DNA of 64,000 bases, taken from contig JAGBHE010000053.1 in assembly GCA_017935675.1 (NCBI GenBank), forward strand, positions 1-64,000, in the 5' to 3' direction. The notes beneath the pieces were generated by a model. It was not told the origin of the DNA, ran no database searches, and worked only from the letters and a program-made list of their open reading frames with translations. This DNA is from Clostridia bacterium (GTDB lineage: Bacteria; Bacillota; Clostridia; UBA1381). The position numbers and the translations under genes were made by a program. Shown here piece by piece: positions 27,840 through 46,965 of this stretch. Position 1 is the first letter of the stretch. Each line of letters starts with the position of its first letter.

Positions 27840-27901
27840 AACACAAGGGGACGGTTCTCCTGTGTTTGCTTTCGAACACAGGAGAACCGTCCCCTCGTGT
27901 T
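27840..27901. repeat. Palindromic interspersed repeat, copy C (hairpin)
   Basis: Two 27-bp arms (27840-27866 and 27875-27901) are inverse complements but for one position, with an 8-bp loop. The left arm starts AACACAAGGGGACGGTTCTC. It sits four bases after the DUF4340 stop codon and can act as that operon's transcription terminator. Confidence 0.85.
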
Positions 27902-44656: not shown

Positions 44657-44718
44657 AACACAAGGGGACGGTTCTCCTGTGTTCGAAATCGAACACAGGA
44701 GAACCGTCCCCTTGTGTT
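44657..44718. repeat. Palindromic interspersed repeat, copy D (perfect)
   Basis: A perfect 30-bp inverted repeat with a two-base AA loop; the left arm begins AACACAAGGGGACGGTTCTC. It lies between the nadK promoter and the end of the beta-CASP-like gene. It is the most intact copy of the family and would form a very stable hairpin or cruciform, also usable as a terminator for the gene ending at 44768. Confidence 0.9.
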
Positions 44719-44767: not shown

Positions 44768-45760
44768 TTAAAGCTTATACGTACCGCTGCCGCAGAAGAA
44801 AATATTTCCACGGTACTGTTCACAGCTTCGTTTTATATCTGGACTTACAACAAACACCTTTTTTGCTTTATCTTTGCTGCAAAAGGCGTATATATCCGAA
44901 AGTGCGGGAGCTTGTGAAAAAAGCTCAGACGGGATTTTAATCCTGCCCGGATAAATACGGCTGCGCGCACTTATAATAAATTCCGGGTCAGACCTGCAGC
45001 CTGACAGAGGACGTATTTTTTCCGAGAACACAGGATATCCGAAGCGCAGAAAATCACAGGCAGGCTCAAGAACGCTCCTGTCAATCCCCACCGTTCTGTC
45101 GTCACTGCCGTTAAAAAACGAAATGACGTCAAAAATATCCGAAAAGCTGCCTGTATTTATAACCGCCCCTCCGGATGATAAAAGCTCGGGCATTGATGAA
45201 GCTCTGCGCCTGAGACGAATTATATAAACCTCCGCCTCCGGAAGCTTCTCCCATGACGGCAGACCTCCGCAGGTATACAAAATACTGCTTTGATTAGTTC
45301 TTATATAAATCGCGGACATTCCCGGGAACGAGCCCGCAGGATAGAAAAAAACCTCTGCCTGATTGCGTTTTCCCCGATTTATTACAATTCTGCTTCTGAA
45401 GCTGCAGCTCATTATTTCCTCAACGGCAGAGCTGTCGGAGCATGCCGCAGCGCGTTTTAACAGCTTTCCGTATCTGACATACTGTCTGTACATCATTTTT
45501 TTCGTCATAGAGGAGGTATAAAACAGCATCTGCCCTCCCGGAGTGTAAAGCTGCGAAAAGCCGCCGGAGCACTCGGTTCTTGAGCTTGAAATCAGCACCG
45601 CATTAGGCTTTTTATATCTGCATCGAGCCGTCAGAGCGCCTCCTGCACCGGGGTCAATAAGAAAGTCAGCACCTCCCGAAGAAATAAAGCATCCGCTCTG
45701 TGTAATACATATATACTGCCTGGGCGAAGCAGACGTTATATTCTTCTCCATCTGCGGCAT
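44768..45760 (-). CDS. Beta-CASP metallo-beta-lactamase-like protein, active site lost
   Basis: About 330 residues from the ATG at 45760 (GGGAGG eight bases upstream; starts within the previous gene's end). I read a beta-CASP layout with every metal motif altered: FLIDPGAGG fits the first loop, but the HxHxDH position is LISSSRTECSGG, the later AGHxPG-like loop is PAGSFPGMSA (His to Ser), and the SGD loop is LYTCGGL (Asp lost). GGAVINTGSFSDIFDVISFF resembles the beta-CASP GGxxLIPxFAxGR segment. If right, it is a pseudoenzyme, binding or scaffolding rather than cutting RNA. Homology is judged by eye only. It forms an operon with the small membrane protein and is divergent from sigG. Confidence 0.55.
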   Translation of the reverse strand: MPQMEKNITSASPRQYICITQSGCFISSGGADFLIDPGAGGALTARCRYKKPNAVLISSSRTECSGGFSQLYTPGGQMLFYTSSMTKKMMYRQYVRYGKLLKRAAACSDSSAVEEIMSCSFRSRIVINRGKRNQAEVFFYPAGSFPGMSAIYIRTNQSSILYTCGGLPSWEKLPEAEVYIIRLRRRASSMPELLSSGGAVINTGSFSDIFDVISFFNGSDDRTVGIDRSVLEPACDFLRFGYPVFSEKIRPLSGCRSDPEFIISARSRIYPGRIKIPSELFSQAPALSDIYAFCSKDKAKKVFVVSPDIKRSCEQYRGNIFFCGSGTYKL

Positions 45761-45939
45761 ATCACTGCCCTCCCCGCTGCCGAACGTACCCTTCCGCGCT
45801 TTTTTCTTCTGCGTTCGGCTAAATAGCTTACGGTGCACAGTCCGGCAAAAACAACTATGTATGCCATAGCTCCGCTCCGGCAAAGCGTTACCATGCACAG
45901 CATTACAATAACCTTTAAAATATCAAAATAATTTTTCAT
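45736..45939 (-). CDS. Small membrane protein, 67 residues
   Basis: Supported by AGGAGA eight bases ahead of the ATG and by tight coupling to the next gene, whose start lies 25 bp inside it. One or two hydrophobic stretches (LKVIVMLCMVTLC, AYIVVFAGLCTVSYL) precede a strongly basic tail (ERRRKKRGRVRS ... CRRWRRI). I recognise no family. It may anchor the beta-CASP-like partner at the membrane; inference from the operon only. Confidence 0.55.
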   Translation of the reverse strand: MKNYFDILKVIVMLCMVTLCRSGAMAYIVVFAGLCTVSYLAERRRKKRGRVRSAAGRAVICRRWRRI

Positions 45940-46120
45940 AACGTTTTCTCCTTCCGGCAGGGTTGCAGCCCTTCTGTTTTCTTTGCTTTTAATTATATTT
46001 TATTTAATGTCCGATAAACAGGACATCTGTATTTTTTCAAAAAAAAATCTCACATCGGAATAACATTATACCAAAAAGGCAAAAATAATATCGGATAATA
46101 AACATTTCTCACTTTACATA

Positions 46121-46194: not shown

Positions 46195-46965
46195 ATGATT
46201 AACAAGGTTGAAATCTGCGGAGTAAACACATCAAAGCTCCCGACACTCACAAGAGCGGAAAAGGATGAGCTGTTTATAAAAATTAAAGCGGGTGACAAGG
46301 AAGCGCGGGAGAAATTTGTCCACGGCAATCTCCGTCTTGTGCTGAGCGTTATACAGAGATTTTCAAACAGAGGTGAAAATGCCGATGATTTATTTCAGGT
46401 CGGCTGCATAGGTCTGATAAAAGCAATAGATAATTTCGATCTGTCGCAGAATGTTCAGTTCTCCACCTATGCCGTACCCATGATCATTGGGGAAATCAGA
46501 AGATATCTAAGAGATAATAGTTCAATACGCGTATCCCGCTCCCTTAAGGATATCGCATACAAGGCGCTGCAGGTTAAAGAACGGCTGGTAAATCAAAACT
46601 CGAAGGAGCCTACAATAGCGGAAATTGCAAAGGAACTGGAGCTTCCGAAAAATGATGTTGTTTTTGCCCTTGATGCAATGTCGGACCCCATATCCCTTTT
46701 TGAGCCTGTATATCATGACGGCGGTGAGGCGATTTATGTTATGGACCAAGTCAAGGATGAAAAGAACAGTGATGAAAGCTGGCTTGAAAATATATCCATA
46801 AACGAGGCGATGAAGCATCTTGACGATAGAGAAAAGCATATTCTGAGCCTGCGTTTTTTCCACGGCAGAACCCAGATGGAGGTCGCAAATGAAATAGGCA
46901 TAAGCCAGGCTCAGGTATCACGGCTTGAAAAAAATGCACTCAATCAGATGCGAAAGTATGTATAA
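46195..46965 (+). CDS. sigG: Forespore sigma factor SigG
   Basis: 256 residues. The N-terminus KVEICGVNTSKLP is the SigG hallmark that the anti-sigma factor contacts. Region 2 (DDLFQVGCIGLIKAIDNFD, FSTYAVPMIIGEIRRYLRD), region 3 and region 4 helix-turn-helix (TQMEVANEIGISQAQVSRLEK) are complete. It directs late forespore transcription. Spacing from AAGGGA to the ATG is long. It is not next to spoIIGA-sigE here as in Bacillus, but divergent from the membrane/beta-CASP pair. Confidence 0.95.
   Translation: MINKVEICGVNTSKLPTLTRAEKDELFIKIKAGDKEAREKFVHGNLRLVLSVIQRFSNRGENADDLFQVGCIGLIKAIDNFDLSQNVQFSTYAVPMIIGEIRRYLRDNSSIRVSRSLKDIAYKALQVKERLVNQNSKEPTIAEIAKELELPKNDVVFALDAMSDPISLFEPVYHDGGEAIYVMDQVKDEKNSDESWLENISINEAMKHLDDREKHILSLRFFHGRTQMEVANEIGISQAQVSRLEKNALNQMRKYV

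Follow-up and report, generated by a model that had tools for sequence, protein, structure and literature searches.

A shortened relative of beta-CASP metallo-beta-lactamases that lacks the family's metal ligands, encoded between nadK and sigG in a Clostridia bacterium

Introduction

Dead beta-CASP proteins organise RNA 3′-end processing in eukaryotes. Whether bacteria also keep a metallo-beta-lactamase (MBL) fold of the beta-CASP type after the loss of all its metal-binding residues is the question raised by a gene in the draft genome (97 contigs) of a Clostridia bacterium. The eukaryotic pseudonucleases CPSF100 and INTS9 have lost their metal ligands and act as non-catalytic partners of an active paralogue (PMC7980224). 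In Staphylococcus epidermidis, RNase J2, a paralogue beside the canonical RNase J1, has altered ligands, retaining several histidines, one Mn2+ and metal-dependent activity (PMC7864078). A sequence-only reading of the 64,000-nt stretch analysed here (the window) had claimed a catalytically dead beta-CASP protein, coupled to a small basic membrane protein beside sigG and kept for a non-catalytic role. These claims were followed up by homology searches, structure prediction, comparison of catalytic residues, a search for orthologues and a simulation of neutral decay.

Results

The open reading frame on the minus strand of the window at 44768-45760 (start ATG 45760-45758, coding 45760-44771, stop 44770-44768) is a real gene, described here as a degenerate compact beta-CASP MBL-like coding sequence of 330 amino acids on the grounds of its open frame, the homology of its N-terminal half and its genome-like synonymous codons. 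The frame is intact, as had been claimed, running for 330 codons without a stop from ATG45760 and for 384 codons from stop to stop, and a Shine-Dalgarno-like sequence, GGGGAGGG, can be read about 7 nt before the ATG (45761-45780, minus strand). Its synonymous-codon score of 0.085 lies within the range of 35 window genes (0.045-0.144); the two other forward frames of the same region score -0.04 and -0.03, and one antisense frame 0.06. The composition of the protein is odd, being rich in serine (13.3%), arginine (7.9%), cysteine (3.6%) and proline and containing no histidine at all, and GC content is, unusually, lower at first codon positions (0.44) than at second positions (0.49).

A second open reading frame, of 67 codons (45736-45939, minus strand), lies immediately upstream and overlaps the gene by 25 nt, with AAGGAG before its own ATG. 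Since the two frames overlap and each has a ribosome-binding site, they are probably translated together. The 67-residue product probably has two transmembrane helices, judged by eye, and a very basic C-terminus, so that a small basic membrane ORF overlapping the gene was borne out. Its single Pfam match was below cut-off (E=0.023), and in 95 genomes of the order no clear homologue was found, one weak match containing an internal stop. A candidate promoter of the two-gene unit is the extended -10 sequence TGGTATAAT at 46065-46073 (minus strand), an intergenic pattern recognised by consensus only; no SigE-, SigG- or SigK-type promoter was found in the region upstream of the gene pair. On the plus strand, a SigF-like promoter, GAATA-N15-GGCAAAAAT, occurs upstream of sigG at window positions 46058-46086 (0.03 expected per shuffle). 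Between the gene and nadK, an inverted repeat with a 20-bp stem (44664-44711) is a candidate bidirectional terminator as well as a dispersed genome repeat. This REP-like element is built on ACACAAGGGGACGGTTCTCCTGTG, recurs in the window at 1608-1631 and 27841-27900, and has 15 exact matches to its core in the genome, some of them paired as hairpins.

The gene pair lies between nadK and sigG, and the sequence-only reading had noted the place beside sigG. Several relatives, including a genus mate (L032), have the order spoIIGA-sigE followed by sigG, and nadK in relatives is preceded by assorted other genes, indicating that the neighbourhood is species-specific. No functional meaning of the place beside sigG was apparent; the link looks positional only, rather than a conserved partnership. 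In the genome studied here sigG (window 46195-46965) stands apart from spoIIGA-sigE, a local rearrangement, and neither the window nor the 16 kb that follow it on the contig was found to contain sigE.

The relationship to beta-CASP MBL proteins is carried by the N-terminal half. With a profile built from 15 relatives, mostly clostridial proteins, residues 1-180 gave a score of 32.7 bits. None of 2000 shuffled sequences reached it, the best scoring 4.0 bits; this half is securely homologous to beta-CASP-type MBL proteins. Residues 181-280 were at chance level, with 202 and 677 of 2000 shuffles scoring at least as high as the query against two profiles. For the C-terminal segment, residues 271-330 ranked third of 2001 at the expected place, 2 of 2000 shuffles equalling or exceeding them with one profile and 4 of 2000 with another; on this modest support the C-terminal strands are probably of beta-CASP type as well. 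The middle cap appears shortened and is unrecognisable by sequence, leaving its beta-CASP identity unproven. Neither pairwise nor profile comparison of residues 186-330 gave significant similarity to any beta-CASP group; the order of landmarks is nevertheless retained to the last residue in a 35-row alignment, in which the query is at most 21% identical to active relatives over the whole protein.

Database searches pointed the same way. The sole Pfam match of the query was PF16661 (Lactamase_B_6; residues 32-163, E=0.0086), which, at 15.9 bits, did not reach the gathering cut-off of 27; a scan of NCBIfam gave no match. Among 391 genomes of the class, two matches other than the query were obtained at E≤0.001, one to an active compact beta-CASP protein, P0003, from uncultured Ruminococcus RUG11189, the other to sequence lying antisense to an AraC gene. 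A sample of the phylum added more beta-CASP enzymes, in register, amid some chance matches. In unbiased genome searches beta-CASP enzymes were thus among the few best matches, again in register. Weak matches to an RnfC gene (G056 C121), an HD-domain protein (L144/L145) and the antisense strand of an AraC gene (L078) were taken as chance. Orthology with Ysh1-type enzymes of about 535 amino acids was rejected, since pairwise z values of 0.5-4.8 are weak (one unrelated control reached 3.3) and the genes beside these enzymes are unlike those of the query locus; a profile of the Ysh1 group alone gave no signal against the query. A similarity at the C-terminus that was persuasive by eye in a MAFFT alignment failed pairwise tests. 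The idea that a small membrane ORF next to an MBL gene represents a ComEC remnant was also set aside, as no NCBIfam ComEC model matched at E≤10 and the best matches were beta-CASP enzymes.

Two kinds of relative stand closest to the query. Clostridial aCPSF1-like beta-CASP proteins of 820-860 amino acids (L164-L178), such as those of Clostridium thermopalmarium (L171) and Fonticella (L164), account for the larger part of the profile that matched best (residues 20-163) and resemble the query in landmark order. They differ in possessing all ligands, a complete beta-CASP cap and a C-terminus with a long extension, none of which the 330-residue query has. The one protein of this set that was scanned, L171, scored 360 bits with an aCPSF1 model and 297 bits with a type VII Cas14 model, both below the cut-offs. 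P0003 (L163, 390 amino acids) is compact like the query and was the best single-sequence match (42.7 bits, tblastn); unlike the query, it keeps HxHxDH, AGH and TGD, and the genes linked to it are one of unknown kind and one resembling Hsp70. In a possible operon at L162 216-5187, a compact active beta-CASP gene is followed on its own strand by an unknown gene and one of Hsp70-like type. A beta-CASP-like MBL gene was also seen in an apparent phage stretch of a family relative (L156 981-3427).

An alignment-guided AlphaFold2 model is consistent with the beta-CASP fold (pLDDT 74.8, pTM 0.78). Predicted confidence was mostly 70-95 in the N-terminal half and about 50-70 for residues 181-280, and the C-terminal strands were positioned as in the beta-CASP family. 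The best PDB matches of the model were IntS11, aCPSF1-type proteins, CPSF-100, Cas14 and TTHA0252, with TM scores (query) of about 0.5-0.6. Since the rows of the alignment are beta-CASP proteins, this fold match is partly circular; without an alignment, AlphaFold2 gave a useless model (pLDDT 32). Structure prediction thus agrees with the proposed fold where the alignment steers it.

Comparison of the query with the 34 active relatives in the alignment (query numbering) confirmed the claimed loss of all metal-binding motifs, every aligned catalytic position being changed or deleted; the beta-CASP catalytic motifs are used as described in PMC7980224. All seven histidine columns of the family are non-histidine or deleted in the query. 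The HxHxDH motif, whose H, H, D and H are kept by 34 of 34 relatives, has become S59-S60-R61-T62-E63-C64 (45569-45586, minus strand, as for the codons that follow), the family aspartate of motif 2 being replaced by glutamate at position 63. The motif 3 histidine (AGHxxG) is Ser144 (45329-45331) and the motif 4 aspartate (xTGD) is Gly166 (45263-45265), each invariant in all 34 relatives. At motif A (ESTYG), a glutamate present in 33 of 34 is Arg182 (45215-45217), followed by a loop deletion. In the C-terminal part, where the alignment is modestly supported, the motif B histidine (S-A-H-A-D; 34 of 34) is Ala284 (44909-44911) and the last histidine (VHG, motif C of the CPSF type; 33 of 34) is deleted after residue 305. 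Of 70 columns conserved at 80% or more, the query keeps 20, including 8 of 14 glycines and the Asp36 and Asp227 positions. From established knowledge of the beta-CASP family, a metal site of the family type should not form in the query and, since the metal-binding residues are lost, the protein is not expected to cut RNA or DNA through the family mechanism.

No orthologue of the query was found in samples of the order (95 genomes), class (391) or phylum (398), nor in phages or plasmids; scanning GTDB and viral contigs for sequence patterns, which is a weak test, gave none either. The gene was thus seen in one species only, and conservation of the ligand loss cannot be shown. Decay was approached by simulating neutral change (pure neutrality, no indels) from three modern active genes. 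Once all six ligands had at least a 4% chance of having changed, about 10 stop codons were expected and the probability of a frame without a stop was at most 6e-5. Such a loss is improbable under neutrality, which argues for selection on the frame through much of its divergence and favours past constraint over simple decay, although a simulation is no substitute for orthologues. A retained non-catalytic role is plausible; of the tests made, the neutral simulation is the one that speaks for it.

Discussion

We propose that the product of the gene is a shortened and much diverged member of the beta-CASP branch of MBL nucleases which, at the sequence level, has lost the ligands of both catalytic metals. 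It is probably translated with the 67-residue membrane and basic protein, and its frame was probably retained by selection for a non-catalytic role. To the joint claim of a real gene, a dead beta-CASP-type fold and a kept non-catalytic role we assign a probability of roughly 55%.

The alternative that deserves most attention, although we consider it rather unlikely, is a dispensable remnant, that is, an inactivated beta-CASP nuclease gene of this lineage, now adrift, whose frame is as yet unbroken by chance. Occurrence in a single species, at a species-specific site, with a shortened cap, a Ser/Arg/Cys/Pro-rich composition and GC1 below GC2, is what such a remnant could look like; the loss of six ligands over 330 codons without a stop would then be improbable, within the simplifications of the simulation, and the intact synonymous codon bias and an overlapping gene pair with two well-placed ribosome-binding sites also argue against drift. 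That the protein is instead a functional orphan, joining an MBL-derived N-terminal half to an unrelated C-terminal half, seems improbable. The absence of significant similarity over residues 186-330 and the chance-level score of the middle agree with it, whereas the rank of the C-terminal segment at its expected place, the landmark order kept to the final residue and the position of the C-terminal strands in the guided model count against it.

Two simpler explanations carry very little weight. An orphan of odd composition might be an open frame arisen by chance, yet homology far above shuffled sequences, the codon score and the ribosome-binding sites make this very improbable. Errors of sequencing or assembly, conceivable in a draft genome, can hardly account for motif losses that are scattered across 330 codons with no frameshift, in a protein so far diverged from its aligned active relatives.

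If the gene has been kept for a non-catalytic role, the likeliest one, tentatively and by analogy with CPSF100 and INTS9, would be that of an adaptor: the inactive fold would attach to RNA or to a partner nuclease, cleaving neither, and its small partner would hold it at the membrane. The genome itself encodes an RNase J-like protein (C37, 567-codon frame) and no other clear beta-CASP protein. Like the query, CPSF100 and INTS9 are of beta-CASP type with lost ligands; they are eukaryotic proteins of greater size in which the beta-CASP domain is complete and whose partners are known, whereas the query is bacterial and shortened, with a candidate partner suggested by gene overlap. RNase J2, also bacterial, retains part of its ligands and the query none. 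The stronger proposal, of a membrane-tethered, fully ligand-free bacterial pseudonuclease acting as adaptor or RNA-binding antagonist and arisen independently as a counterpart of CPSF100 and INTS9, is doubtful.

The view that nothing of this kind had been described needs narrowing, as INTS9, CPSF100 and, in part, RNase J2 are known beta-CASP pseudoenzymes; in open-access papers, no beta-CASP protein from bacteria was found to have lost every ligand, and the partly altered RNase J2 alone surfaced on the bacterial side. At present the query is one orphan in one species, and so a lead rather than a family. If true, a fully ligand-free bacterial example would mean that the same route was taken independently of eukaryotes.
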